Source: Desulfamplus sp. (GTDB lineage Bacteria > Desulfobacterota > Desulfobacteria > Desulfobacterales > Desulfobacteraceae). From it: a stretch of 47,859 nt of DNA. The DNA is taken from contig JADFZJ010000024.1 of the NCBI GenBank assembly GCA_015232555.1, forward strand, positions 1 to 47,859, given 5' to 3'. Each line of letters starts with the position of its first letter. The first letter of the stretch is position 1. This document shows positions 4,696 to 42,165 of this stretch, piece after piece. A program made the translations under genes and the position numbers. Under the pieces are notes generated by a model that had not been told where the DNA came from, ran no database searches, and saw only the letters and a list, made by a program, of their open reading frames with translations.

Positions 4696-5300
4696 AAACC
4701 TCCGGGTTCATAAATGGTGCGATTTTAATCATTTATCAGCAATTTGAATATATTGAGATTCTAATATATTAGTATTCCTATATTGTGTTAGCCTCTCTAT
4801 TTCATATCATTTTGCAAGTCAAATCTGATATCACTTTGTTAGGATTATATTAGAATTATAGTTATTTAATAGGGATAACCATTTGATTTTAATTGATTTT
4901 TATTTGTGAAACAGAACAACAGCCTTGAAATACAGGAACTTCTTCAATTGGCTGTTATCACATGAGATATTGGAGTTTTAACGAATTTAATTCCTTAGGC
5001 ATAAAACATGAAAATCTATCTTTTATCAGTTTTTTGCCTTTTTTCTTTGATTTAATCCTTTTTTCTCATTTAGGACTATATATATATTATTTTTCGATAG
5101 TTTCACAGCATAGGATACTCCTCTTTATTTACAGCAGGGTTTTTTATTTACACACTTTTTAGTCAGTAGTATATTGACAGCAATTTTAATTGTAACTTTT
5201 TTATCATTAAATAATTTAAATCCAACAATAATTGCAGTCCAACAATAATGGCAGCGAGGCTGCTTATTTTTCTATTAAATGAATTAGAGGTAAAACAGTC
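4696..5300. other. AT-rich gap between divergent dnaA and pdxA; possible replication origin
   Basis: 605 bases without a convincing gene, very AT-rich, placed upstream of dnaA, where bacterial origins often lie. Two copies of TTATTTACA (5125-5133 and 5144-5152, same orientation, 19 bases apart) each differ at one position from the DnaA-box consensus TTATNCACA; a near-box TTATCACA lies at about 4955. CTAATATATTAG at about 4764 is a perfect small palindrome. Promoters for dnaA and pdxA must be here, but none is clear. An origin is possible but weakly supported: no cluster of perfect boxes is visible. Confidence 0.3.
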
Positions 5301-6530
5301 ATGCAGAATCAGAGTGTTCACAAACATCTACAGCATAGATTAGAACAAAATTATGAGAATAATAGACCAGTCATTGGCATTACAATGGGAGATCCAGCAG
5401 GAATTGGTCCTGAAATCATTGTTTCAGCACTATCATCTGTTTCTATACATCAGATATGCAGACCCATTGTTATTGGAGATATTGGTGTTATTGAAAAGGC
5501 AGTTTTATTGAAAAACTGCAAACTAAATATTAATAAAATACCTTCTCATTATTATTACGATGAGAATAATGATGGTGGTGGTGACTTTTCTGATCTTAGC
5601 TTTTCCGCGGACACAATTAATGTTCTGAATCTATCTAATTTGAAATCTCCAAATGTATCTTTCAAAGACGTATCGAAAGAGAATCTAAAAGTGCAGAGTG
5701 CTATGATGGTATCTGCATTTAAGCCGTCTCAAGAGACTGGACAGGCAATGATAGACTACATCACAAAAGCAGTTGAGCTTTGCATGTCTCGAAAAATTAC
5801 CGCAATGGTTACCGCTCCTATCACCAAGACCGCCTTTCAAATGGCTGGCTCTCAATTTCATGGACATACAGAACTGATTGCTCATAGAACCTTCACCCAT
5901 GATTATGCGATGATGCTTGCAGGAGATCGGCTAAAAGTTGTGCTTGTAACTATTCATATTCCGCTTGCTCAAGTGTCAGGACAATTAACTATTGACAATA
6001 TTGTCAAAACAATCAGGATTGCAGGAACTGCATTAAAAAATAATTTTGGTATTAAAAAGCCGAGGATTGCAGTTGCTGGATTGAATCCGCATTCAGGTGA
6101 AAACGGGATGTTTGGCAATGAGGAGGAGCGTATTATCCTGCCTGCTGTTAAAAAGGCAAAAGAGATGCTATCTTTGGAATATGCAGACGAGGCTCTATCA
6201 TTGGAATGTACAAAAGATAGAGAAGTTAATAACATCAGCGGATTTGATATAGATGGACCGTTCCCCCCTGACACCATTTTTTATCATGCAGCACAGGGAA
6301 AATATGACTGTGTAATATGTATGTATCATGATCAAGGTCTTATTCCATTTAAACTGCTCCATTTTAGTGACGGGGTAAATACAACGCTCGGGCTTCCCAT
6401 TATCAGGACATCTGTTGATCACGGCACTGCCTACGACATAGCATGGCAAAACAGGGCAGATCACACAAGCCTTGTTCAGGCAATAAAAATGGCTGTATTA
6501 CAGGCGTGCAGTTTGAATAATCGGTCTTGA
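5301..6530 (+). CDS. pdxA: 4-hydroxythreonine-4-phosphate dehydrogenase PdxA
   Basis: NAD-dependent, metal-dependent enzyme of the DXP-dependent pyridoxal phosphate pathway, oxidising 4-phosphohydroxy-L-threonine. The start of the fold is GITMGDPAGIGPEII (26-40). Metal-ligand histidines are seen in FHGHTELIA, LVTIHIPL and CMYHDQGLIPFK. The C-terminal half has LNPHSGENG and DGPFPPDT, and ends near RTSVDHGTAYDIA. At 409 residues it is longer than the usual roughly 330: there is an N-terminal extension of about 22 residues, an Asn/Asp-rich insertion around 85-130 and a smaller one near 295-310. GAGGT precedes the ATG at about ten bases. It is transcribed divergently from dnaA and is followed by an acidic protein gene and valS. 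Confidence 0.94.
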   Translation: MQNQSVHKHLQHRLEQNYENNRPVIGITMGDPAGIGPEIIVSALSSVSIHQICRPIVIGDIGVIEKAVLLKNCKLNINKIPSHYYYDENNDGGGDFSDLSFSADTINVLNLSNLKSPNVSFKDVSKENLKVQSAMMVSAFKPSQETGQAMIDYITKAVELCMSRKITAMVTAPITKTAFQMAGSQFHGHTELIAHRTFTHDYAMMLAGDRLKVVLVTIHIPLAQVSGQLTIDNIVKTIRIAGTALKNNFGIKKPRIAVAGLNPHSGENGMFGNEEERIILPAVKKAKEMLSLEYADEALSLECTKDREVNNISGFDIDGPFPPDTIFYHAAQGKYDCVICMYHDQGLIPFKLLHFSDGVNTTLGLPIIRTSVDHGTAYDIAWQNRADHTSLVQAIKMAVLQACSLNNRS

Positions 6531-7344: not shown

Positions 7345-10038
7345 ATGAGTTCTGATTCTCTTGAAAAAGGATATGACCCCAACGGGATTGAAGATAAATG
7401 GTACAGGTATTGGTTAGATAAAGGTTTTTTTGAGGCAGCAGATAAAAGCGATAAACAGTCCTATTCGATTGTTATTCCACCGCCTAATGTGACTGGCGTT
7501 CTTCACATGGGTCATGCCCTTAATATAACCATACAAGATATAATGTGCAGATTTAGAAGGCTTTGCGGGGATAATGTCCTCTGGATGCCTGGTACAGATC
7601 ACGCTGGTATTGCAACTCAAAATATTGTTGAAAAAAATTTAGCAAAAAAGGGCATTACAAGAGATCAGTTAGGAAGAGAAAAATTCATTGAAGCTGTGTG
7701 GGAGTGGAAAGAACAGTCAGGCGGTGCAATCATAAATCAGCTTAAAAAAATCGGTGCATCCTGTGACTGGGCAAGAGAACGATTTACAATGGATAAAGGA
7801 CTTTCAGATGCTGTAAGAAAGGTCTTTGTACGTCTTTATAAGGATAATCTTATCTATCAAGGTCAATATATAATTAACTGGTGTCCAAGATGCAGAACAG
7901 CTCTTGCTGATCTTGAGGTTGATCATGAAGAGAATGATGGATTTCTATATTATATAAAATATCCGTTTGTAAATGGCACAGATGGACTTGTTGTTGCAAC
8001 TACCCGTCCTGAGACCATGTTTGGAGATACAGCAGTTGCCATCAACCCGAATGATGAGAGATATAAAAATATTGAGGACAAGAGAGTTGTTCTGCCTCTT
8101 ACCAACCGAATTATTCCAATTATCCGTGATGAGTATGTTGATATTCAATTTGGTACAGGTGCACTTAAGGTTACTCCTGCTCATGATCCAAATGACTTTA
8201 ATCTTGGAGAAAAGCATGGTCTTGAGAGGCTAAAAGTCATTGATGATAATGGAAATATGAACGAAAATGCAGGTGATTATCAAGGTCTTGATCGGTTTAA
8301 ATGCAGGGAAATGGCAGTTGAGGCACTTGAAAAACTTGGTCTTCTTGTAAAAAAAGAGCCTTTAAAAAATAGTGTTGGGCACTGTTATCGCTGTAAAACA
8401 GTTATTGAACCTTCGCTTTCCCGCCAGTGGTTTGTAAAGGCTGCTCCGCTTGCAAAGGTGGCAGCAGATGCTGTTAGAGATGGCAAAACCAGGATTATAC
8501 CTGCCAACTGGGCAAAAACATATTTTGACTGGCTTGATAATATCCAAGACTGGTGTATCTCAAGGCAGATATGGTGGGGGCACAGAATTCCAGTTTGGAA
8601 ATGTTACACCTGCGGACAGGTTATAGTTGAAGAGGTTGATCCTGATAAATGTGACGGATGCGGTTCTCTTGATATCTCTCAGGAGACCGATGTTCTTGAT
8701 ACATGGTTCAGTAGTGCACTTTGGCCGTTTTCCACAATGGGCTGGCCAGAAGATACTGATCTGTTAAAGACATTTTACCCCACAAGTGCCCTTGTTACAG
8801 GCTTTGACATTCTATTTTTTTGGGTTGCCAGAATGATGATGATGGGTACCCGTTTTATGGGAGAAGTTCCATTTAAAGATGTTTATATTCATGCTCTTGT
8901 AAGAGATGAGCATGGCAAGAAGATGAGTAAATCCAAAGGCAATGTTATTGATCCGCTTAAAATAATTGACAATTATGGTGCTGATGCGTTCAGATTTACC
9001 CTTTCGGCATTTGCAGCTCAAGGCAGGGATGTTCGTATGTCAGAGGAGCGGGTTGAAGGATACCGCAATTTTGTCAACAAACTTTGGAATGCTTCAAAAT
9101 TTACATTAATGCACCTTGAAAGTGTCAAAAATGGAGAGTCACTCCCTTTACAGCTTCACATTACAAACATTGAAGACAAAGCCTATTCTATCAGCGAGCA
9201 TTGGATACTATCAAGATGTGCAGCAACTGCTGAGGCAGTAAGTGCAGGTATTGAAAATTACAGGTTTAATGATGCTGCTAACGGTATTTACCAGTTTGTA
9301 TGGCATGAGTTCTGTGACTGGTATTTAGAAGCTGCAAAGTCTGCCCTTTACGAAAAAGAGGGGCAGAAGAGGCGTGATGCTTCAAGAACTGTTATAGCAA
9401 AGGTTCTTAAAGATATTATTATAATGCTCCATCCGTTTATGCCGTTTGTAACTGAAGAGATATGGCATGCCCTTCCAACAGTTAGTGGTTCGATTATGGA
9501 AGCCTCCTTCCCAGCAGATAACGACCCTGATCATACATTCAGAAACCTTCAGGTTGAAAAGAACATGGAGTTTATTATTGCTTTGATTTCAGGCATCCGC
9601 AATATTCGCGGGGAGATGAATATTCAGCCTTCACTCCAGCTTAATGTGGTATTGCAAACATCAGACGATGCTGAGAGACGGCTTATCACAGATAACGAAT
9701 CTCTGATTGAAAATCTCTCAAGACTTGAGAGCCTTACTCTTTCTGATACTGGAGAGGCACCTGTCTCTTGTGCCACAGGCGTGGTTATGGGAACTACGAT
9801 TTATGTATCATTAAAAGGTGTAATTGATTTTGATAAAGAGGAGCAGCGTTTAGAGAAAGAGCTTGATAAGGTAACTAAAGAGTTGCTTTCTATTTCAAAG
9901 AGGCTTACCAATGAGAGCTTCCTTGATAAAGCTCCTGAAGATGTTGTGGAAAAGGTAAAAGAGCAGCAAATTATGCTTCAGGATAAGAGCGACAAGCTAA
10001 CTTTAAACCTTGATAAAATCAAACAGATGAAAATATAA
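7345..10038 (+). CDS. valS: Valyl-tRNA synthetase
   Basis: Class I aminoacyl-tRNA synthetase charging tRNA-Val. The HIGH signature appears as HMGH (54-57) within PPPNVTGVLHMGHALN and the KMSKS signature is at 526-530. The editing (CP1) domain contains ATTRPETMFGDTAVAINP. A zinc-type knuckle is seen in CYTCGQVIVEE...CDGCGSLD. The C-terminus has the ValS coiled-coil arm (FDKEEQRLEKELDKVTKELL, then NESFLDKAPEDVVEKVKEQ). The length of 897 is normal for the bacterial short form. AGGAG lies eight bases before the ATG. It follows the acidic protein gene by about 50 bases and may share its transcript. Confidence 0.97.
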   Translation: MSSDSLEKGYDPNGIEDKWYRYWLDKGFFEAADKSDKQSYSIVIPPPNVTGVLHMGHALNITIQDIMCRFRRLCGDNVLWMPGTDHAGIATQNIVEKNLAKKGITRDQLGREKFIEAVWEWKEQSGGAIINQLKKIGASCDWARERFTMDKGLSDAVRKVFVRLYKDNLIYQGQYIINWCPRCRTALADLEVDHEENDGFLYYIKYPFVNGTDGLVVATTRPETMFGDTAVAINPNDERYKNIEDKRVVLPLTNRIIPIIRDEYVDIQFGTGALKVTPAHDPNDFNLGEKHGLERLKVIDDNGNMNENAGDYQGLDRFKCREMAVEALEKLGLLVKKEPLKNSVGHCYRCKTVIEPSLSRQWFVKAAPLAKVAADAVRDGKTRIIPANWAKTYFDWLDNIQDWCISRQIWWGHRIPVWKCYTCGQVIVEEVDPDKCDGCGSLDISQETDVLDTWFSSALWPFSTMGWPEDTDLLKTFYPTSALVTGFDILFFWVARMMMMGTRFMGEVPFKDVYIHALVRDEHGKKMSKSKGNVIDPLKIIDNYGADAFRFTLSAFAAQGRDVRMSEERVEGYRNFVNKLWNASKFTLMHLESVKNGESLPLQLHITNIEDKAYSISEHWILSRCAATAEAVSAGIENYRFNDAANGIYQFVWHEFCDWYLEAAKSALYEKEGQKRRDASRTVIAKVLKDIIIMLHPFMPFVTEEIWHALPTVSGSIMEASFPADNDPDHTFRNLQVEKNMEFIIALISGIRNIRGEMNIQPSLQLNVVLQTSDDAERRLITDNESLIENLSRLESLTLSDTGEAPVSCATGVVMGTTIYVSLKGVIDFDKEEQRLEKELDKVTKELLSISKRLTNESFLDKAPEDVVEKVKEQQIMLQDKSDKLTLNLDKIKQMKI

Positions 10039-32888: not shown

Positions 32889-34019
32889 TTAAAGATTTGA
32901 TGAAATTATCTGATCAACCAGCCTGTTTTTACTCAAAGCTGAAATTGCATCTGCATTTTGTGCCAAATCATCAACATTTGAAAACTTAAAACTAATAGTA
33001 TAATCTCTCCCTTCAAAATCTGCTGGAGGTTCAAGTTTTATACCGCCTTTTAAATCGCCTTGCGAGTTTAAGAGCTTTAAGTTTATATTAAACTGCTCTT
33101 TTGCTTTGGACAGGTTGGGATATCTTTGTTCAAACAGAATAGATCTCAGCAGGTTTCCTTTTCGGTTTTCATCTGCACCGTCTGCACTATTATCAACAAT
33201 CTCTCTTATTTCTTTTGCGTTTATGACATCAGTAACTGAAATATTTTCTCTTGCAGCAATCTCATGGATATTGGTGATTATCTCTTTTTGCTTGTTTAGA
33301 CTGGTTTTTATTTTTGAAAAGAGTCTGACAAAGCTATCTATCACATCATCATCATAACCGTACTGCCTTAATTTTAACGCTGCCCCCATTGCAAGCCTCT
33401 CGTTCTCAACAACTCTGTGAACTGATGCTGGCATGTTGGCAATATCATCAAGCATATTAATTAAAGCTCTGTTCATGTTCATGTTAAATATGGCAGATGA
33501 GCTTCCTGCAATCTCCTCAACAGAGATAAATTTTTTTAACAGATGCACTCCTCTTGCCTGCTCCATTGTATTCAGCTCTCTTTGAAAAGAGTTTTCTGAT
33601 ATTGCAATAAATGCACAAGTTTTCTCATCACACTCTAATATATTTGCCAATATCTTGTTTGGGAGATTGGAATCTTTAGAAGAGATAAGGCTCTTAACGG
33701 CAGCCAGTCGTCTAAAACCGCTCACCACACGATATGGTTTGTGCTCTAACTCTCCATTGCAGATTTTATCATCTGAGCCTATCTTTTGTAATATCGGAAG
33801 ATTAATAAGACCAATTGAATTGATTGATGCAGCAAGAGAGGATAGAGATTTATCAAATGAGGCAGGGTCATTATCATACAAAGATTTGTCAGACGAAATC
33901 TTAAAAGTCTCGTCTGACAAATCTATATCATCTATGTTTATATTTGTTATGCACAGCCTCTCTTCAGCCCTCCTTGCGGGAAAGGAGGGAGTAATAATTG
34001 GATTTTTGCAGTTAGACAT
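32889..34019 (-). CDS. ParB-N-domain protein (stand-alone)
   Basis: 376 residues with a ParB/Srx-type N-terminal domain: SLAASINSIGLINLPILQK, then YRVVSGFRRLAAVKSLI, followed by AFIAISENSFQRELNTMEQA, the usual ParB order (boxes I and II). The helical middle (roughly 165-260) could be a DNA-binding helix-turn-helix. No parA is adjacent and the gene does not sit beside dnaA or a plasmid replicon, so a chromosome-partition role is not shown. The ATG shares its A with the purC stop (TGATG), so translation is coupled to purC. It may be a nucleoid or CTP-switch protein of other function. Confidence 0.75.
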   Translation of the reverse strand: MSNCKNPIITPSFPARRAEERLCITNINIDDIDLSDETFKISSDKSLYDNDPASFDKSLSSLAASINSIGLINLPILQKIGSDDKICNGELEHKPYRVVSGFRRLAAVKSLISSKDSNLPNKILANILECDEKTCAFIAISENSFQRELNTMEQARGVHLLKKFISVEEIAGSSSAIFNMNMNRALINMLDDIANMPASVHRVVENERLAMGAALKLRQYGYDDDVIDSFVRLFSKIKTSLNKQKEIITNIHEIAARENISVTDVINAKEIREIVDNSADGADENRKGNLLRSILFEQRYPNLSKAKEQFNINLKLLNSQGDLKGGIKLEPPADFEGRDYTISFKFSNVDDLAQNADAISALSKNRLVDQIISSNL

Positions 34020-34903
34020 CAGATAACACCAGTAATAAGATTAAGAGCCTCAAGGTATTTGGCAGAAGTTTTTTCAATAACATCTTGTGGAAGTTTTGGA
34101 GCAGGAGGCGTTTTATCCCAGCCAGAAGACTCTAACCAATCTCTTACAAACTGCTTGTCAAAGCTCTTTTGCGAACCGCCCGGAGAGTAGGAATCTTTGG
34201 GCCAAAAACGTGATGAATCAGGTGTCATAACTTCATCAATCAAGATAATCTCTCCATCAACCTCTCCAAACTCAAACTTGGTATCTGCAATAATAATGCC
34301 TTTGCTCAATGCAAGCTCTGCACCTTTTTTATATATTTTCAAACTTAAATCCTTGATCTTTTCCGCCTTTTTCTTGCCAAGAATTTTTACTGTCTCTTCA
34401 AAATCGACATTGATGTCATGATCACCCACTTCAGCTTTGGTTGATGGAGTATAGAGCGGCTCAGGAAGTCTATCAGACTCTTTTAACCCTTTTGGAAGTG
34501 TAATGCCGCACACATGACCCTCTTTCTGGTAAGATTTCCAGCCAGAACCAGAGATATATCCCCTGACAATACACTCAACAGGTAACGGCTCTGCTTTTTT
34601 AACCAGCATACTTCTGCCTTCGAGTATATCTGCGTATTTTTGGCATATTGGAGGAAAATCTCGCACATCAGCAGATATCAGATGGTTGCCCACAATATCT
34701 TCCATCACCTTAAACCAAAATACTGAAATCTGCGTCAAAACTCTGCCTTTGCCATCAATTCCATCAGGCATAACCACATCAAACGCGGAAAGCCTGTCGG
34801 TTGTTACCATTAAAAAGGCATCTCCTGTGTCATAAATATCTCTTACCTTTCCTTTTCTTACAAGTTTAAGCTCTTTAAAATCTGTCTCTCTAATTGTGTT
34901 CAT
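34019..34903 (-). CDS. purC: Phosphoribosylaminoimidazole-succinocarboxamide synthase
   Basis: Joins aspartate to CAIR in purine synthesis. N-terminal [30 protein letters not shown] is characteristic, followed by [17 protein letters not shown] and the ATP/Mg site [11 protein letters not shown], then [13 protein letters not shown]. Length 294 is normal for this longer (yeast-like) form. GGAG lies eight bases before the ATG. It overlaps the following ParB-like gene by one base. No other purine gene is in the window. Confidence 0.96.
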
Positions 34904-35051: not shown

Positions 35052-35990
35052 TTATATAAATTCTAACTCTTTCATCAACTTTAAAATTGCAACCTCTTTT
35101 GCCTTTGCCTCAACTTCAACTGTCATATCTCTATTTATAGATAACCAGAACTTTGGAAAATCATTAATATCAATGTAATCATGGTGCATTCTGATATCGT
35201 TTATTGGAATATTTTTTGTTATTATACCTTGATTTTGTGCTTTCCACCCGTTTTTAGGAGAAGAAAGATGAAACAAAGGCTCTCTATTCCATGTATCAAA
35301 ACACCGCTCAGTTGCCTGCTCAACTGTCAAACTGTCTCTTAAACATCTATGATGGTGAATATCATAGACAAATGGAATCTCCATATCTGAACAGAGCGGC
35401 AGCAGATCTTCTGGAGAGTAGCTTTTATCGTCATTTTCAATTGTTAAACGTCTTCGCACCCTATCCGAAAGCGTGTCAATGGTATTTCGCAGACGGTTTA
35501 AAGCAGATTCTTTATCTCCATAAACTCCGCCAGCATGAATATTTATCACATCACTATTTACCCATTCAGCCACCTCTGCCTGATATTCAAGGTCTGCAAT
35601 TGAACGGCTCACCACATCAGGATTTGGAGAGGATAAAATAATAAACTGGTCAGGATGAAATGTGGTTCTGATACCATGTCGTTTGCAAAATAGACCACAA
35701 TCTTTAAATATGCCTGCTATCTTTTCTCCTTCTGGCAAATCATAGATAGAGTAGCCGATATCATGATGGGTCTTTAACGGCAGAATTTGACTGTTAATTC
35801 TAAAACAGCCGATTTTATTTTGATAGCAGAAATCAAGAGCTTTTAATAAACTTTCAGCATTGTAAAGGCAAATTGCTGATAACCGTCTTTGCTGCTCCTC
35901 CAAAGAGAATTTTGACAGATATTTAACAGTTGTCCTTTTAAAATTTATAGGCTGCTCTTTAAATAGGCAGCAAAGACCAAATCTAATCAA
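35052..35990 (-). CDS. uvsE: UV-damage endonuclease UvsE/UVDE
   Basis: TIM-barrel DNA repair endonuclease that nicks 5' of UV photoproducts. It has the family opening IRFGLCCLFKEQPINFKRTT, then the metal-site segments TTFHPDQFIILSSPN, VINIHAGGVYGDK, RLTIENDDKSYSPEDL and VYDIHHHRC. 312 residues is normal. The start is TTG at 35990 with GGAT upstream; no in-frame ATG gives a complete N-terminus. It heads a minus-strand run purC-parB-like-SPL-like, separated from purC by about 150 bases. Confidence 0.94.
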   Translation of the reverse strand: MIRFGLCCLFKEQPINFKRTTVKYLSKFSLEEQQRRLSAICLYNAESLLKALDFCYQNKIGCFRINSQILPLKTHHDIGYSIYDLPEGEKIAGIFKDCGLFCKRHGIRTTFHPDQFIILSSPNPDVVSRSIADLEYQAEVAEWVNSDVINIHAGGVYGDKESALNRLRNTIDTLSDRVRRRLTIENDDKSYSPEDLLPLCSDMEIPFVYDIHHHRCLRDSLTVEQATERCFDTWNREPLFHLSSPKNGWKAQNQGIITKNIPINDIRMHHDYIDINDFPKFWLSINRDMTVEVEAKAKEVAILKLMKELEFI

Positions 35991-36066: not shown

Positions 36067-36258
36067 TTATTTAACAGCGTCAAACTCATTATCTTTAAAT
36101 GGGCGTTCAGTATTTTTGTTTAAATCGTGCACAACAAAATCAGACCAGCCTTCCCGTGCTAAAGTCCGATGAGAACCCGTTTGCCGTTTTATGTGCCAAC
36201 CAATCTTAAATAAAGCGGCAAGTACTCGTTTTGCTTTTGAAGATGACCATTTACTCAT
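36067..36258 (-). CDS. HicA-type toxin with altered, shortened C-terminus
   Basis: 63 residues. The first 45 match HicA mRNA interferases of the SSSKAKRVLAALFKIGWHIKRQTGSHRTL type, including the catalytic histidine in GSHRT. Related HicA proteins then continue through a beta strand (about FVFAFHD) and a helix of the form IGPKMLARIAKKTGL. Here the sequence turns after FVVHD into an unrelated KNTERPFKDNEFDAVK and ends, so the last helix is lost. It starts inside the stop of the preceding hicB (ATGA overlap). It may be inactive. Confidence 0.7.
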   Translation of the reverse strand: MSKWSSSKAKRVLAALFKIGWHIKRQTGSHRTLAREGWSDFVVHDLNKNTERPFKDNEFDAVK

Positions 36259-36464
36259 GCTGCATCTGGTATTGATATATTGATATCAACAGGATTTAAT
36301 TCGCCATTTTCAAGCTGTTCAGCAAGAACTCTAAGAGCAAGAGCCTTAACTTTTGCCATAGCCTCATTTTGAGAACCTCCATAAGCAAGCACACCTGGAA
36401 GTTGGTCAATTTCTGCCAACCAGCGACCATCTTCTTCTTTTTCAGACTCTATGATTAAAATCAT
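36255..36464 (-). CDS. HicB-family antitoxin
   Basis: 69-residue HicB-like protein: IIESEKEEDGRWLAEIDQLPGVLAYGGSQNEAMAKVKALALRVLAE, the RNase-H-like HicB core with a characteristic LPGV turn. The acidic tail ends VDINISIPDAA. AAGGAA precedes the ATG. It overlaps the downstream HicA-like gene by four bases. It directly follows a fragment of the MmeI-like gene's 3' end. Confidence 0.85.
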   Translation of the reverse strand: MILIIESEKEEDGRWLAEIDQLPGVLAYGGSQNEAMAKVKALALRVLAEQLENGELNPVDINISIPDAA

Positions 36465-36506
36465 TTTTATATTCCTTCTTAAATTTAAGATTTGTTTTTC
36501 TGCTTC

Positions 36507-36596
36507 TTAACTTTTTTTAGAGTTCTCCAACGGCAGCTCATTCAAATATGTTTGATATAACTCAAACAGAAACGACACTCTTTCAGCTTCTGTTTT
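36507..36596 (-). pseudogene. 3'-end fragment of an MmeI-like gene (tail copy C)
   Basis: Read on the minus strand it encodes KTEAERVSFLFELYQTYLNE and then LPLENSKKS and a stop. This is the C-terminus of the intact MmeI-like protein (KTEAERVAFLFELYQKYVS), followed by a variable tail. It begins two bases past the stop codon of hicA and is followed by another hicB. It is closer to tail copy B (four mismatches over about 70 bases by eye) than to the intact gene. Confidence 0.85.
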
Positions 36597-36597
36597 A

Positions 36598-36783
36598 TCA
36601 AGGTTTTTGAATATCCAAATCTTTGCAAATCTTTTTTACCATTAACTGTTTAATTTCACTATGCCTTGGAACAGCGGTCATGCTTCCGAGCTCAATATTT
36701 TTCCATATAGAATGGCGTGAACCTTCACGCAATAACTCACATCCATTTCTTAAAAGATGCTGTATTAATTCATTTCTTTTCAT
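36598..36783 (-). CDS. hicA: HicA toxin (mRNA interferase)
   Basis: 61-residue complete HicA: ELIQHLLRNGCELLREGSRH with the catalytic histidine in GSRHSIW, then the strand TAVPRHSEI and the terminal helix KKICKDLDI. Expected to cleave or block mRNA as a double-stranded-RNA-binding-fold toxin. It overlaps the upstream hicB by four bases (ATGA), the reverse (antitoxin-first) order. Its stop is directly followed by tail copy C. Confidence 0.88.
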   Translation of the reverse strand: MKRNELIQHLLRNGCELLREGSRHSIWKNIELGSMTAVPRHSEIKQLMVKKICKDLDIQKP

Positions 36784-36992
36784 ACTACCAACAATAATTC
36801 TTCAAAATTATCTTTTATTTCGCTTCTCATTTGTTGCCTACGAAGATCAATAATATCTTTAACCGCTTCTTTCAGGCTAATTATTAACTCATCTTTTGTT
36901 CTTTCCTGAGCATTAGCTCCTGGCACTTCTTCAATCCAACCGAGCCACCAATCATCATCTTTTGTTATAATAGCTGTATATTCGGTATTCAT
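36780..36992 (-). CDS. hicB: HicB-family antitoxin
   Basis: 70-residue protein with the HicB core DDDWWLGWIEEVPGANAQERTKDELIISLKEAVKDIIDLR. It is encoded directly upstream of hicA with a four-base overlap. Its ribosome site AAGGAG lies inside what were codons of vapC, in a duplicated vapB/vapC junction fragment. Confidence 0.87.
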   Translation of the reverse strand: MNTEYTAIITKDDDWWLGWIEEVPGANAQERTKDELIISLKEAVKDIIDLRRQQMRSEIKDNFEELLLVV

Positions 36993-36998
36993 AATATT

Positions 36999-37113
36999 CT
37001 CCTTTTGATAAATATATAATGATGTTACTGTCCATTAGAATTTTACCACTCATTGCGTATTTCTCTCTCCCAAGATAATGGGTCAATGTTTTTAAATGGT
37101 TTTACCTCTTTAT
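36999..37113 (-). pseudogene. Duplicated vapB/vapC junction fragment
   Basis: 115 bases match 37933-38047 with a single mismatch (T at 37035, G at 37969). On the minus strand they encode the end of VapB (KPFKNIDPLSWEREIRNEW, stop) and the first 19 residues of VapC (MSGKILMDSNIIIYLSKGE). The vapC frame then runs out of phase into hicB. The near identity implies a recent duplication with a 934-base offset. Confidence 0.93.
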
Positions 37114-37133
37114 TTTGAGAGATGGATCGTTTT

Positions 37134-37436
37134 TCAAGATAGTTTATGCTGGCGTTTCACATTCTCAAGCATTTCTACAGTGGCAGCCCATTCAACAAAA
37201 TCCATTGAATCTGCTAACATGCCTTTTTCATATTTTTGATAGAAATCATCTGATTTTAAAACATACTGCTTTTCAAATTCAGATATATCATTTATCAGGC
37301 GGGCTTTGAGTTCAGATACACGCTCAAATTCACGAGCCAGCAATTTATTTATGGTTATCTCAATTACAGAATCGACAACTGAATTGTTGATAGCAACATA
37401 CTCTTCAAGGCATTTTATCTTTTCAAGTGTTGTCAT
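37134..37436 (-). CDS. Small antitoxin-like protein with FYxKYExGxLxDxMDFxEW motif, orphan
   Basis: 100-residue helical protein. The C-terminal motif FYQKYEKGMLADSMDFVEWA is one I recall from small proteins encoded beside TumE-type (DUF6516) toxins, where they are thought to act as antitoxins. Here no such toxin gene follows; instead the gene runs into the truncated vapB/vapC junction. AAAAGGA precedes the ATG. It directly follows tail copy B. The family link is from memory of the motif and is moderate. Confidence 0.65.
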   Translation of the reverse strand: MTTLEKIKCLEEYVAINNSVVDSVIEITINKLLAREFERVSELKARLINDISEFEKQYVLKSDDFYQKYEKGMLADSMDFVEWAATVEMLENVKRQHKLS

Positions 37437-37455
37437 AATTCTTTATCCTTTTGTA

Positions 37456-37603
37456 TTATGGATTTATTAATTTTGTTAGATTTTTTGATTTAGATTCCTC
37501 CAACGGCAGCTCATTCAAATATGTTTGATATAACCCAACCAAAAACGTCACTCTTTCAGCTTCTGTTTTAAAGTTTGTCTTACCGTAAGCAGCATCAGCC
37601 TCT
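37456..37603 (-). pseudogene. 3'-end fragment of an MmeI-like gene (tail copy B)
   Basis: On the minus strand it encodes ADAAYGKTNFKTEAERVTFL followed by VGLYQTYLNELPLEES and a short tail ending in a stop. It matches the C-terminus of the intact MmeI-like protein (YGKTNFKTEAERVAFLFELY). It overlaps the last codons of vapC, whose stop TGA lies inside the fragment. The antitoxin-like gene starts 17 bases past its stop. Confidence 0.87.
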
Positions 37604-37987
37604 CTGATTAATCACAAAAGGGTTTAACACATTCAGAGAATCATCAATATTATTAAAATCATTTATATTTCTTGTCATTAAATCACATTTTCTTACCATT
37701 GCAGTTGCTGCAATAATAGCATCAGGAAGTTTGATTTTCTTATGTTGTCTGATTTCAACAACTTTATCTGCTATCTGTTTATCAATATAAATCACTTTAA
37801 AAACCGCCAAAATCTGTTGGATGAATTTTTTCTCATTTAACGTTTCAAATTGAAAACCCAACGTCTCCATATATGTAATTACTGAGATAAAATACTTTTT
37901 TTTATCATCAAATAACTTATCTATGTTAAGCTCTCCTTTTGATAAATATATAATGATGTTACTGTCCAGTAGAATTTTACCACTCAT
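37595..37987 (-). CDS. vapC: VapC-type PIN-domain toxin
   Basis: 130-residue PIN ribonuclease. Acidic active-site residues appear in LLDSNIIIYL, ITYMETLGF and KLPDAIIAATA, with TRNINDF completing the fold. The upstream frame extends to 38020, but the ATG at 37987 starts the PIN fold properly. It overlaps vapB by 11 bases. Its natural end near VLNPF is followed by VINQRG, which comes from fusion into the MmeI-like tail copy B. Confidence 0.88.
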   Translation of the reverse strand: MSGKILLDSNIIIYLSKGELNIDKLFDDKKKYFISVITYMETLGFQFETLNEKKFIQQILAVFKVIYIDKQIADKVVEIRQHKKIKLPDAIIAATAMVRKCDLMTRNINDFNNIDDSLNVLNPFVINQRG

Positions 37988-38228
37988 TGCGTATTTCTCT
38001 CTCCCAAGATAATGGGTCAATGTTTTTAAATGGTTTTACCTCTTTATATTTTTCAAACACATCTGCAAGATTTTGTTTAAGTGAGTTTTTTTTGCTGATT
38101 TTAGGAATTATGATATCCGTATCTGATATAATAATTTCTACCTGCTTCCCTTTAAATTGTTGAACTGTATTAAAAGGTATAATAATCCCATCAGGTGTTA
38201 CAGTCTGTTTTATTCTAATAGCGTTCAT
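37977..38228 (-). CDS. vapB: VapB-type antitoxin
   Basis: 83 residues: an N-terminal beta-rich segment (IRIKQTVTPDGIIIPFNTVQQFKGKQVEIIIS) of the AbrB-like/DUF104-like kind that would dimerise and bind DNA, and a C-terminal toxin-binding tail (FKNIDPLSWEREIRNEW). The ATG at 38228 with AAGGAG seven bases upstream is chosen over longer starts inside the preceding gene. It starts 11 bases after the stop of the MmeI-like gene, so the TA pair is probably co-transcribed with the restriction enzyme gene. Confidence 0.83.
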   Translation of the reverse strand: MNAIRIKQTVTPDGIIIPFNTVQQFKGKQVEIIISDTDIIIPKISKKNSLKQNLADVFEKYKEVKPFKNIDPLSWEREIRNEW

Positions 38229-38239
38229 GGTTACGCTCC

Positions 38240-40996
38240 TTATTGATTTTTTGTTGATGATTTCTTGGTGCTTTTTGTTTTCTCTGGCAAACAACTCACA
38301 TACTTTTGATATAACTCAAACAAAAACGCCACTCTTTCGGCTTCAGTTTTAAAATTGGTCTTACCGTAAGCCGTGTCAACCGCTTTATCAAGTTTCTGGT
38401 GAGCTTTTAGAAGTATCGGAGGCATGGTGAGCGGGTCGTAAAGGTCAGCAAGCGATGAGTCAGGAAATTGAGCACGAGCATCAAGAACCTCTTGAGCTGC
38501 GGTTTCAATTGCCTGTTTCTGTTTTTCGGTGGGATTTTGAGGCCACAGGAAATTGTTGTAAACTATGCCCGCTGAATAGCGATAATCGCTTTTCAAACGC
38601 CCGCAAACAGTTCGCATCCAAGCATTGTGCATTAATGAAGTCAAAACTCCAAAATCATAAAAAGTGGCTTCTGGGATTTGAAAATTGGCATTGCCACAAA
38701 TAACATCAGAATCAAAGTATCCAACAGGAATATAAGTCCTGTTTTCAGATGTATGACAAGGAACCAACAAATAATTAGTCTTTGCTTGCCTTATTTCTGC
38801 AAATAGCGTGGGCATTAAGGCTAATTCACGAGTTGCTAACTTTGAACTGCCGATTCTCATATTGCGAACTTTTTCTATCCGTTTCATTACATACGGCATT
38901 TGTTGTAATTTTTGAGGAGGACAATCTACTAACCACAAGCAATATCTTGGAACGTTGTGGAGAAATTCTTCTGCGTTGAGAAAAGGTCTTATGTATTCTT
39001 CAGCTACTGGCTCGTGTTGTAAAATCTCTTTCTTTTCTGAATCAGATAACAGCAAATTACTACCGTCAACGGGTTTACTCCCATACCGCATCGGCAAGAC
39101 TTCACAAATTGGATGACGACGGTTTTGAAGGATAAAGGTTGGTGCATCAACCAAATATGGATTGATATTTTTAACCTGAACCTGATGCGGTTCGCCTTTT
39201 ATATCTTCGTATTCAAAAAGCCATTTTGGTGAAACTTCCTCAGCAGCAAAGCCAACAATCACACAGTGAACAGCCGCTTTGCCGCGTGCCTCACTGTTCC
39301 ATGCAAACGTGCGGTGAGCAAAAAATATTTTAATGCCTTGTGCCAACATCCAACTCCACAGCACGCCTACCTGTTCGCCTTGTGTGATTGAATTTGTTGA
39401 GACAAACGCACAACGGATTGGTGTTGTCTGAATAATCCGTGCCGCCTTCACATACCACCCAGCCACAAAATCAAGAACACCTGCACCATCCAAGCCTGAT
39501 AAAACTCCTTCAAGGTCTGCTTTTTGGTTTTTATTCTGATATGCGTATCCCACAAACGGAGGATTACCCATGATGTAGCTTAACTTTTCTGCTGGAATAA
39601 CCTCATTCCAGTCAATTTGAAGAGCATTACCACAGACAATAGTACTGCTGGAAATGAGCGGAATACGTGCAAAATAAAGCCCAAACTCTTCTGAAACCAT
39701 CTGATTCATCTGGTGATCTATAAGCCACAACGCAACCTGAGCAATTTGGGCTGGAAACTCCTCAATCTCAATGCCGTAAAACTGGTCAACATTCAGCTTG
39801 ATTAAAGATTGAATGTTAAGATCGAGAGTCTGCTGTTTATCGCCTTTCAAGGCTCTTAAAATATCAAGCTCTAAAAGTCTTAATTCTCGATATGTGATAA
39901 CAAGGAAATTTCCGCAACCACAGGCAGGGTCAAGAAAGGTTAAGCTGCGTAATTTGTTGTGAAAATCAATGAGCCGATTTTTGTTGTTTTTAATCTTTTC
40001 AAACTCTTCTCGTAAAGCATCAAGAAATAGAGGCTTTATGAGTTTTAAAATATTGTTTTCACTTGTGTAGTGTGCACCAAGGTTGCGTCTTGCGGTCTTG
40101 TCCATAATTGACTGAAACAGTGACCCGAAAATAGCAGGTGAAATTCTACTCCAGTCAAGTGCACAGCAATCAAGAAGATTCTGACGCATGGTATTGTCAA
40201 AACTTGCAGTTGGCAGCATCTCTTCAAAAAGTTTGCCGTTGATGTATGGAAATGCTGCAAGCTGTTCATCAAGATTTTTGAACCTTTTTTGTTCAGGTGT
40301 ATTGAGTATTTGAAATATTGTGTTGATATGGTGGGCAAGGTCAGAACCATCTTGACTGGTTCGCTCTTCAATGTAATCTTGAAACTGCTGCCGTTCAAAG
40401 ATGCCTGTATCTTCGGCAAACATGCAGAACAGAAGCCTCACCAAATACAGCTCAAGCTCGTGTCCTTCATAACCGACCTCTCGCATCAGGTCATGGAGTT
40501 TACCCATAAGTTCGGCAGCATGGATATTTACAGGGTCCTGCTCCTGAATTTTGTGGGTCTGATAACCAGCGACAAATCCAAACAATTTTACGTTTTTATG
40601 TAAATCTTGTAATTCAAATTCGTGGATATCGTTATTTTCCAAATCGTAAAGGCGTAGACGAACAAAATCAGATACTAAAATGTATTTAGGCAGATCCCGT
40701 TCTGCAATACCCGGAAAATAGTCAAGTGCCTGAGTGTAAGCCTTATCAAGATTTTTTCCGCGTGATTTGTGTTCAACTAAAAGCACGCCTTTCCAGAATA
40801 GATCGATAAATCCTTGTTTGCTGCCAAGTTTTTTTACAGGCTCTTCAAACGATGCAATGCGTCTGCGGCTGATTCCAAAGATATGAAAAAATCCGTCCCA
40901 GAAAGATTTTGCCTCTGCATCTTCGGAAGCTTCATCAGCCCACTCTTTTGAAAATGCAAAGGCACGGTTTTTGATTTCGTTCCAGCTTATTGGCAT
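38240..40996 (-). CDS. MmeI-like type IIL restriction-modification enzyme (single polypeptide)
   Basis: 918 residues, the length of MmeI. The N-terminus has a PD-ExK nuclease: D65 in FIDLFWKG and E75-x-K77 in LLVEHKS. A helical connector follows. The adenine methylase has motif I FLDPACGCGNFL (354-365) and motif IV NPPFVGY (478-484). The target recognition region follows (about 620-820), and a C-terminal helical part ends KTEAERVAFLFELYQKY plus a Lys/Ser/Thr-rich tail. One protein should both methylate one strand and cut at a distance. No separate specificity subunit is needed. Its 3' end is repeated twice downstream among toxin-antitoxin genes. Confidence 0.93.
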   Translation of the reverse strand: MPISWNEIKNRAFAFSKEWADEASEDAEAKSFWDGFFHIFGISRRRIASFEEPVKKLGSKQGFIDLFWKGVLLVEHKSRGKNLDKAYTQALDYFPGIAERDLPKYILVSDFVRLRLYDLENNDIHEFELQDLHKNVKLFGFVAGYQTHKIQEQDPVNIHAAELMGKLHDLMREVGYEGHELELYLVRLLFCMFAEDTGIFERQQFQDYIEERTSQDGSDLAHHINTIFQILNTPEQKRFKNLDEQLAAFPYINGKLFEEMLPTASFDNTMRQNLLDCCALDWSRISPAIFGSLFQSIMDKTARRNLGAHYTSENNILKLIKPLFLDALREEFEKIKNNKNRLIDFHNKLRSLTFLDPACGCGNFLVITYRELRLLELDILRALKGDKQQTLDLNIQSLIKLNVDQFYGIEIEEFPAQIAQVALWLIDHQMNQMVSEEFGLYFARIPLISSSTIVCGNALQIDWNEVIPAEKLSYIMGNPPFVGYAYQNKNQKADLEGVLSGLDGAGVLDFVAGWYVKAARIIQTTPIRCAFVSTNSITQGEQVGVLWSWMLAQGIKIFFAHRTFAWNSEARGKAAVHCVIVGFAAEEVSPKWLFEYEDIKGEPHQVQVKNINPYLVDAPTFILQNRRHPICEVLPMRYGSKPVDGSNLLLSDSEKKEILQHEPVAEEYIRPFLNAEEFLHNVPRYCLWLVDCPPQKLQQMPYVMKRIEKVRNMRIGSSKLATRELALMPTLFAEIRQAKTNYLLVPCHTSENRTYIPVGYFDSDVICGNANFQIPEATFYDFGVLTSLMHNAWMRTVCGRLKSDYRYSAGIVYNNFLWPQNPTEKQKQAIETAAQEVLDARAQFPDSSLADLYDPLTMPPILLKAHQKLDKAVDTAYGKTNFKTEAERVAFLFELYQKYVSCLPEKTKSTKKSSTKNQ

Positions 40997-41104: not shown

Positions 41105-42130
41105 CTAAAGCAGATTCTCCATATACCACCTTGCAGCCTCATCTAACCCGTCATTTACTGAAAATAGCGGCTTATAATCCAAAAGTGTTGACGCATTTGA
41201 GATATCAGCTAAAGAGTGACGCACATCACCGGGTCTAAAATCTCGATATTGAGGCTCAACATTGATTAGTTCAGGGTATTGCACAGCTACACGCTCACGA
41301 ATCATGGTAAAAAGCTGGTTAAGGGAAGTTCTCTCTCCAAAGGCAACATTATAAACCCGATTTACTGCACTCTTATCTTGAGCCACTGCTGCCAAAATAT
41401 TTGCCTGAACGCAGTTGTCAATATAGCAAAAATCACGGCTGGTCTCGCCGTCTCCGTTGATATATACAGGCTCACCTTTTATGAGCGATGCAAACCAGAG
41501 AGGAATTACTGCTGCATAGGCACCGTGCGGGTCTTGTCGTCTGCCAAATACATTAAAATAGCGAAGTCCGACACTCTCTACATTATATGTTCGGGCAAAC
41601 ACATCAGCGTAAAGCTCATTTACATATTTTGTGACAGCATAGGGGGAAAGTGGACGACCTATTTTGTCCTCAACTTTGGGCAGATCAGGATGATCTCCGT
41701 AAGTTGAACTTGATGCAGCATAGACAAACCGTTTGACTTTAGCATCACGGGCAGCGATGAGCATGTTGAGGTGACCTGTGATGTTGTTGGCGTGGGTGTT
41801 GAGCGGGTCTGCAACTGAACGGGGAACAGAGCCAAGGGCAGCCTGATGAAGAACATAGTCTTTACCTTCACACACAGCCGCACACGTTTCAGTATCCCTG
41901 ATATCGCCTTTTATAAAGATAAAATTTTTCCACTGTTCAGGTGTAACAGCCTCTCGAACCTGGTCTAAATTATGCTGAAAACCTGTGGAAAAATTATCAA
42001 GTCCTGTTACCTTTTGGTTAAGGTTAAGCAGGTATTCTACAAGGTTGGATCCTATAAAACCAGCCGCACCAGTTACAAGCCAGTGTGCAGGGTATTTTGA
42101 TATCTCTTTACAAATATAGTTGTAACTCAT
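41105..42130 (-). CDS. wbpP: UDP-N-acetylglucosamine C4-epimerase WbpP-type
   Basis: Short-chain (extended) NAD-dependent epimerase. [15 protein letters not shown] is the NAD loop, and [10 protein letters not shown] with [16 protein letters not shown] provides the catalytic S/T-Y-K set. The chain follows Pseudomonas WbpP closely ([49 protein letters not shown]), and the preferred start (ATG 42130, GGGAGG upstream) gives 341 residues, the WbpP length. It would convert UDP-GlcNAc to UDP-GalNAc or act on the uronic acids. It lies 35 bases after wbpO. Confidence 0.93.
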
Positions 42131-42165
42131 TATTATAAAAACCTCCCAAATCAAAGATTAAATCT

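Follow-up and report, generated by a model that had tools for sequence, protein, structure and literature searches.

How does a restriction gene come to be followed by a row of toxin-antitoxin (TA) genes with pieces of its own 3' end lodged between them? The question is raised by a 47,859-nt stretch of DNA from Desulfamplus sp. (contig JADFZJ010000024.1, here contig C23 of genome G000), which we call the window. The array in question lies entirely on the minus strand and reads, in that strand's order, epimerase, MmeI, vapB, vapC, tail B, a TumA-like antitoxin gene, a scrap of vapB and vapC, hicB1, hicA1, tail C, hicB2, a truncated hicA2, uvsE, purC and a parB-like gene, where a tail is a copy of the MmeI 3' end and tail A is the end of the intact gene itself (coordinates in Table 1). 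Genomes are labelled G and MmeI loci L; L033 is the locus on G004:C128 and L042 that on G007:C82. We think it probable that the locus records a history of repeated MmeI replacement, in which the ends of old alleles were left behind as scars and TA genes accumulated.

Tails B and C are in-frame remnants of the last 30-50 codons of MmeI, in the same orientation as the gene and between TA genes: tail A is followed by vapBC, tail B by the TumA-like antitoxin gene and tail C by hicB2/hicA2. Tail B is open for 51 codons and tail C for 42, without a stop, and they match MmeI protein with E-values of 1.4e-8 and 5.6e-4. The two are 93% identical to each other (37489-37570 and 36516-36597), compared with 71% between tail C and the gene's own end (38270-38351; 82 nt, ungapped), and local alignment to the window's own gene gives 83% over 89 nt for tail B and 87.5% over 56 nt for tail C. 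Their best match is the end of the intact MmeI gene of G007, at 92.6% over 136 nt for tail B (37597-37464) and 96.3% over 82 nt for tail C (36597-36516), and both tails appear to derive from an MmeI allele other than the window's own.

An earlier interpretation made from the letters of the window alone (the sequence-only reading) had described the recurring in-frame ends, their greater likeness to each other than to the intact gene and their origin from another allele, and these points are borne out here. It was also right that the vapC stop codon falls inside tail B and that tail C begins directly after the hicA1 stop; as we read the sequences, tail DNA supplies the stop codon of the preceding gene for vapC, for DUF5615 and, in the case of G009, for RlaP. 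Its statement that an antitoxin gene follows every tail holds for vapB, the TumA-like gene and hicB2, but the first hicBA pair (36992-36598) has no tail directly before it, hicA2 is truncated, and the vapB/vapC scrap between TumA and hicB1 had been overlooked. Tails scattered through the genome without TA genes would have spoken against that reading, and no tail fragment was found elsewhere in the genome by DNA search, MmeI protein search or a search with a profile of the C-terminal end.

Copies of a gene end on either side of an insert might suggest that a TA module had been inserted with a long target duplication, as Nobusato et al. reportedly described in 2000 for an R-M (restriction-modification) unit. 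The relevant passages of PMC3874152 report target duplications of around 100 bp for some R-M units, and one locus of our survey, L079, is such a near-identical duplication. The copies flanking the insert in the window, however, belong to different alleles: their identity to the gene's own end is 71-87%, and the MmeI gene of another genome matches them better. We regard this origin as highly improbable. Insertion of an R-M unit in the same manner was rejected because the flanking copies do not come from the same target, tails B and C being nearer to the G007 MmeI end.

Related genomes place the array at one of two chromosomal sites. From their sequences we take the genes flanking site 1, that of the window, to be an epimerase gene and purC, and those flanking site 2 to be the ABC-transporter genes btuD and btuF; wecC and rlmN, mentioned below, are named in the same way. 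At site 1, G007 and G008 have no insert, and G003 and G004 have a different gene. The array of G009, next to rlmN-purC, is reshuffled, in the order tail, DUF433/DUF5615, tail, hicB2, RlaP, short tail, vapBC and tail remnant; the G009 MmeI gene, which is cut by a contig end on the separate contig C57, probably adjoins this array. At site 2, MmeI is present in three genomes, each with its own cargo. G000 has its second full MmeI gene here (G000:C29:102199-105021), followed by RlaP, HEPN (N-terminus missing) and MNT genes. The cargo in G004 consists of DUF433/DUF5615, a tail, vapB' with a PIN toxin, a tail, TumA/TumE and a methyltransferase, and that in G007 of a helix-turn-helix (HTH) gene, scraps, DUF433, vapB, hicBA1, a tail and a methyltransferase. 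A higBA pair also lies directly upstream of MmeI in G007 (L042:6342-6962), with none at the same place in G004 or G000.

Five modules occur at both sites: vapB (site 1 in the window and G009, site 2 in G007), hicBA1 (site 1 in the window, site 2 in G007), TumA (site 1 in the window, site 2 in G004), RlaP (site 1 in G009, site 2 in G000) and DUF433 (site 1 in G009, site 2 in G004 and G007). Seen at site 1 only is hicB2 (window and G009), and at site 2 only are HEPN/MNT, TumE, the second PIN toxin and the HTH gene. The arrays are thus mosaics at fixed sites, with modules common to several genomes in different order, and the expectation of the sequence-only reading that MmeI homologues in related genomes would be followed by different TA sets with MmeI tails between them is matched at both sites. 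Three joints recur in independent assemblies, namely vapC to tail B (window and G009), DUF5615 to tail (G004 and G009) and vapB/vapC scrap to hicB1 (window and G007, where the scrap and hicBA1 are both present), and so these joints are not assembly errors.

Two further observations concern the modules themselves. The vapB gene of G004 (L033:6066-6347) shares the N-terminal half of the window's vapB (37977-38228) and differs in the C-terminal half and in the PIN toxin, an apparent swap of partners within the antitoxin gene. The RlaP-family nucleotidyltransferase (PF10127) is found as a cassette-like gene behind MmeI at two different sites (L132:1058-1834 and L003:10107-10895).

In an alignment of 13 tails of the genus the 3' tips are of several kinds and the centres of two, FELYQKYVSC (K) and FELYQTYLNEL (T). 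The centre before hicB2 is T in the window but K in G009, the one before TumA is T in the window but K in G004, and the one behind hicA1 is T in the window but K in G007; since the centres change neighbours, exchange must have occurred inside or next to tails. Seven of the eight displaced tails of the genus find their best match in another genome's array, as expected of tails that come from other alleles. The tips are the most variable part of the MmeI proteins of the genus (21-53% identity) together with the specificity region (30-74%), and the segment between the two is 84-92% identical (the last two segments compared in four proteins, the G009 gene being cut). Identity between the tips that precede vapB is 77-92% (window, G004 and G009), and between those that precede DUF433 it is 84% (G004 and G009). 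For vapB and DUF433, tip and TA gene are therefore shared jointly, the shared stretch beginning inside the MmeI reading frame; for hicB2 and TumA this linkage fails.

Changing neighbours would also be expected if the array were an integron-like store, in which pieces consisting of a tail and TA genes cross over by ordinary homologous recombination at the tails only, so that any stored cassette can reach MmeI and restore a full-length gene. Some homology blocks do start and end in tails (window 38303-37585 against G009 1827-2551, and G004 5234-6014 against G009 1-795). Yet the tails are short and diverged, and breakpoints do not fall in them significantly more often than expected: 12 of 31 homology-block ends lie in tails against 7.9 expected by rotation of the tails (P=0.11, with block ends that are not independent and with blocks lying more than 80% within tails excluded beforehand). 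Other breaks are found inside vapB, where the C-terminal half and toxin are swapped together, and at toxin starts. Such a store would still require an illegitimate event for the first joint between toxin and tail, and it would exchange just the end of MmeI, whereas most of the gene is swapped in the pair of loci described next. We consider this explanation unlikely.

That pair, L072 and L088, comes from two contigs of one metagenome-assembled genome, Chitinophagales WC_3. The two loci are identical at their ends (67/67 nt on the left, 99 nt on the right) and 93-97% identical over the first kilobase, and they are only 50-84% identical over the rest of MmeI. In L072, the gene's own tip and an open reading frame (ORF) of 68 aa come next, and behind them stand the final 34 codons of the L088-type gene with the DNA that follows it (97% identity over 179 nt). 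The 3' two-thirds of MmeI and the downstream ORF differ as a replaced block, and the end of the other allele is retained. By sequence, L072 and L088 look like a before-and-after pair of one-sided replacement in another phylum: the exchange inside the gene and the non-homologous joint just before the resident stop codon in L072 are what such a replacement predicts. Two further pairs of relatives, L041/L047 and L073/L077, differ by the presence or absence of a cassette of about 0.5 kb right at the MmeI stop codon, each with a diverged specificity region.

The small ORF of L072 (L072:2953-3159) has a counterpart in L082 (L082:9886-10119). These ORFs of 68-77 aa are 43% identical between two Bacteroidota, overlap the MmeI stop codon and have an MmeI tail after them; neither matches Pfam or NCBIfam, and the L072 copy has no plasmid match.

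Taken together, our analysis suggests sequential displacement by one-sided (homology-facilitated illegitimate) recombination as the best reading of the locus, with MmeI as the anchor and TA genes as the cargo. Incoming DNA carrying a different MmeI allele with TA genes behind it would pair with the resident gene through homology on the 5' side and, lacking homology on the 3' side, would be linked there by an illegitimate joint shortly before the resident gene ends. The new specificity domain, C-terminal tip and TA genes would then land directly behind the conserved 5' part, and the last tens of codons of the old allele would be pushed downstream together with the old TA genes. Repetition would yield the order MmeI, TA, old tail, older TA, older tail, oldest TA, after which the tails could serve as homology patches for further shuffling of cassettes between the MmeI loci of the genus. 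We infer the one-sidedness of the joining, the direction of events and the polarity of the array, with the newest cassette nearest MmeI. TA addiction may be the reason that old cassettes are kept; that the TA genes protect or otherwise benefit the restriction system, as the sequence-only reading had suggested, is likewise hypothetical. Decay of cassettes fits displacement: TumE is gone and hicA2 truncated in the window, while four antitoxin genes remain open, and DUF5615, whole in G009, is broken in G004 and truncated in G007.

The sequence-only reading had instead treated the conserved 3' end of MmeI as a recombination landing site for TA cassettes. Much of that picture survives, in that TA cassettes differ at the same sites, tails lie between them, the tails are mosaic, and site 1 is empty in G007 and G008. 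What we would modify is the dedicated site: breakpoints are not significantly concentrated in tails, and the L072/L088 pair favours scars of one-sided replacement. The tails are better explained as scars of a replaced MmeI gene, or of its 3' part with the specificity domain.

Several observations weigh against sequential displacement. Between the window and G009 the tips in front of hicB2 are only 63% identical, both being more like DUF433-type tips, and identity between the tips in front of TumA is 43%. The middle (second) tail of G009 has its nearest match in the first tail of the same array (91.8% over 85 nt) and looks like a local duplication. Some cassettes are tail-less (the first hicBA in the window, vapB and DUF433 in G007), as are hicBA copies elsewhere in the genus, which have no detectable tail in G006 and G008, and no tail is left in L041/L047 or L073/L077. 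The direction of the L072/L088 change could be the reverse, and the two could be separate loci of one genome. The non-significant breakpoint result counts here too, as do the lack of any listed sigma-70-like promoter in the tails, the plain duplication in L079 and the scarcity of tails across the phylum described below. A bolder form of the reading holds that the array is an ordered fossil record of restriction alleles, and that a mobile cassette starting inside MmeI and ending with the TA genes circulates between two loci across the genus, an integrase-free counterpart of the integron that an R-M gene would drive and addiction would preserve. We entertain it only tentatively and think it more doubtful than not, the more so because tip and TA genes are linked for vapB and DUF433 and unlinked for hicB2 and TumA.

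How common such tails are was assessed in the flanks of 84 MmeI loci (up to 8 kb a side, often less; 414,528 bp upstream and 453,645 bp downstream), each searched with the locus's own MmeI protein; 87 loci had been tried, of which L043, L080 and L090 dropped out for want of a usable gene end. Ten tail-only fragments were found in 7 of the 84 loci, all downstream and in the same orientation: two each in the window, L033 and L068, and one each in L064, L072, L079 and L082. The L079 fragment, though counted, is to be set aside, since that locus simply carries a tandem duplication of 324 bp (96.6%). In L042 there is a weaker tail, with an E-value of about 0.002 when searched with its own tail. Other downstream pieces were a mid-gene fragment (L058) and an internally deleted second MmeI copy (L038), and the upstream flanks of the 84 loci held no MmeI fragment except a repeat within the gene of L089 itself. 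Tail fragments behind MmeI are thus more than chance.

A phylum-wide search with profiles of C-terminal, N-terminal and middle MmeI pieces of similar length, in 395 genomes each, matched the C piece in 18 genomes and the N piece in 19; the middle piece also matches other methylases (104 genomes) and was unusable. Short C-only pieces outside the window's own genome (G317, G273 and G209) were no commoner than N-only pieces (G245, G315 and G234), and the G317 piece was not recovered with the window's MmeI as query. The lack of an excess of C-only fragments in the phylum indicates that the phenomenon, though real, is uncommon.

The survey also bears on the possibility that whole MmeI-TA units once stood side by side and that the inner MmeI bodies were deleted, leaving the part next to the following TA genes. 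MmeI copies with both ends and an internal deletion do exist (L038, G082, G400 and G084), and TA genes would be hard to delete. But no intact second MmeI gene was seen in the flanks of the 84 loci (8 kb a side at most), three of the four deleted copies retain longer 3' parts than the tails, and no sigma-70-like promoter is listed on the minus strand within the tails, which leaves no evident reason for keeping that part. Tandem units therefore seem to us quite improbable.

A few observations from the survey stand on their own. The duplicated stretch of L079 (6474-7147) covers the 3' end of MmeI together with noncoding DNA downstream. In L089 (8581-8933), residues 581-622 of MmeI are encoded twice within the gene, at 8581-8706 and from 8808 onwards, which points to an internal repeat or a break beside the specificity region. 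The internally deleted MmeI copies (L038:15725-16069, L141:3912-4811, L142:2970-3698 and L146:2893-4376) keep the N-terminal part and C-terminal end and could be products of decay or small functional derivatives; those of L038, L141 (299 aa) and L142 (242 aa) are open in one frame. MmeI relatives were found at E 1e-50 in 267 plasmid records and 5 phage records. That TA genes lie directly behind MmeI as a general rule was rejected, since outside the genus the first ORF behind MmeI is in most cases no recognisable TA gene (84-locus listing, by eye); exceptions include L055 and L098.

Table 1. Features of the MmeI array and its flanks in the window.
Feature	Position	Strand	Basis or remark
MmeI, predicted type IIL-like restriction-methylation gene, 918 aa	38240..40996	-	Pfam MmeI_N, MmeI_hel, MmeI_Mtase, MmeI_TRD, MmeI_C
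Tail A, the intact gene's own 3' end	38240..38384	-	tip common to tails before vapB in two other arrays
vapB-like antitoxin, 83 aa	37977..38228	-	ORF; named by its place before the PIN toxin
vapC PIN-domain toxin	37595..37987	-	PF01850, E 1.3e-14; stop codon within tail B DNA
Tail B, putative remnant of another MmeI allele's 3' end	37480..37603	-	MmeI similarity
TumA-like antitoxin without TumE	37134..37436	-	NCBIfam TumA NF045776, E 3.4e-9, below cut-off
Scrap of a second vapB end and vapC start, 119 bp	36998..37116	-	98% repeat of 37932-38050
hicB1-like antitoxin	36780..36992	-	ORF; named by its place before hicA1
hicA1 toxin	36598..36783	-	PF07927, E 2.2e-10, full length
Tail C, putative remnant of an MmeI allele's 3' end	36507..36597	-	MmeI similarity
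hicB2-like antitoxin	36255..36464	-	PF08972, weak, below cut-off
hicA2 toxin, C-terminal part lost	36067..36258	-	PF07927, positions 2-37 of 58
uvsE	35052-35990	-	profile match; between array and purC
purC, right-hand flank of site 1	34019..34903	-	orthologues placed by genome comparison
NAD-dependent epimerase, left-hand flank of site 1	41105..42154	-	adjoins purC directly in G007 and G008

The gene calls in the array differ in their support. The window's MmeI matches all five MmeI Pfam domains (N, hel, Mtase, TRD, C), from which its enzyme class is predicted. VapBC is recognised as a TA pair by a PIN toxin with an overlapping small antitoxin gene upstream; vapB itself has no Pfam or NCBIfam match at E 0.01, and its homologues occur in the arrays of G009, G007 and, for the N-terminal half, G004. 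HicBA is recognised by a HicA toxin with an adjacent antitoxin, full length for hicA1 and partial for hicA2, which retains 47 of the 70 residues of an intact homologue in G006; hicB1 has no Pfam or NCBIfam match, and a hicB2 homologue sits behind a tail in G009. TumA/TumE does not qualify as a TA pair in the window, where TumA scores below cut-off and TumE has no match anywhere. The TumA homologue in L033 does adjoin TumE, which matches PF20126 and falls below cut-off in NCBIfam. The idea that a tail acts as promoter of the next TA genes was rejected, as no sigma-70-like site listed on the minus strand falls inside a tail; sigma-70-like sites on both strands of the region number 13 against 11.5 in shuffles, other promoter types being outside the search.

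If the reading is correct, the stacking of displaced modules, known for secreted toxins, extends to restriction genes, and there is a concrete route by which TA genes lacking an integrase or transposase of their own could accumulate beside R-M systems in defence islands. From the tails one could read the restriction alleles that a genome once had, and the exchange of cassettes between two sites in one genus would make TA shuffling directly testable. In the open-licence full-text literature, none of the listed titles on MmeI and toxin-antitoxin points to such arrays, and no papers were found joining restriction-modification, target recognition domain, illegitimate recombination and toxin-antitoxin, or homology-facilitated illegitimate recombination with toxin-antitoxin.

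Chromosomal integron arrays are ordered series of same-direction cassettes with a repeated element. The window's array shares this order, direction and repetition, but its repeat is a coding remnant. No integron integrase was found among the main ORFs at 32.9-43.5 kb (parB-like, purC, uvsE, TA, MmeI, epimerase and wecC), and a site-specific integrase was rejected more generally as the agent, with none among the genes identified around the array and a repeat that is an MmeI coding remnant. R-M insertion with target duplication, as described in part of PMC3874152, likewise involves R-M genes and copies of about 100 bp at junctions, but the copies in the window come mostly from different alleles. 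In Helicobacter pylori, according to the portion of PMC4615327 that deals with it, hrgC replaced the PabI R-M genes, of which 78 bp of one and 88 bp of the other remained. Short R-M gene ends beside a toxin-like gene recall the window, but that account describes a single replacement, by a gene that only resembles a toxin, and no array.

Closer parallels come from secreted toxins. Sections of PMC6336857 on Acinetobacter describe orphan cdiA-CT/cdiI modules behind cdiA, in contact-dependent growth inhibition (CDI), and discuss illegitimate recombination. As in the window, 3'-end fragments and toxin/antitoxin modules are stacked there in the same orientation, remodelled stepwise and able to recombine with the full gene. 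The window resembles orphan-module arrays of the T6SS (type VI secretion system), CDI and Rhs kind in that displaced 3' ends of its anchor gene lie behind it and point the same way, but the CDI toxin is part of the anchor protein that delivers it, whereas MmeI domains span the anchor here and the HicA and PIN toxins are separate genes. Closest of all are the T6SS effector-immunity arrays in Vibrio cholerae, attributed to sequential displacement in the relevant part of Kirchberger et al. 2017 (PMC5361080), which also compares them with integron cassette arrays. A homologous upstream anchor, illegitimate downstream joining, the shift of the old module and old 3' gene end downstream and mosaic arrays between strains are all features of that account, in which the cargo consists of secreted effectors and immunity genes, whereas the anchor in the window is a restriction-methylation gene and the cargo TA genes. 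The process is thus of a known kind, and what is new is a restriction gene as anchor, TA genes as cargo and exchange between two loci.

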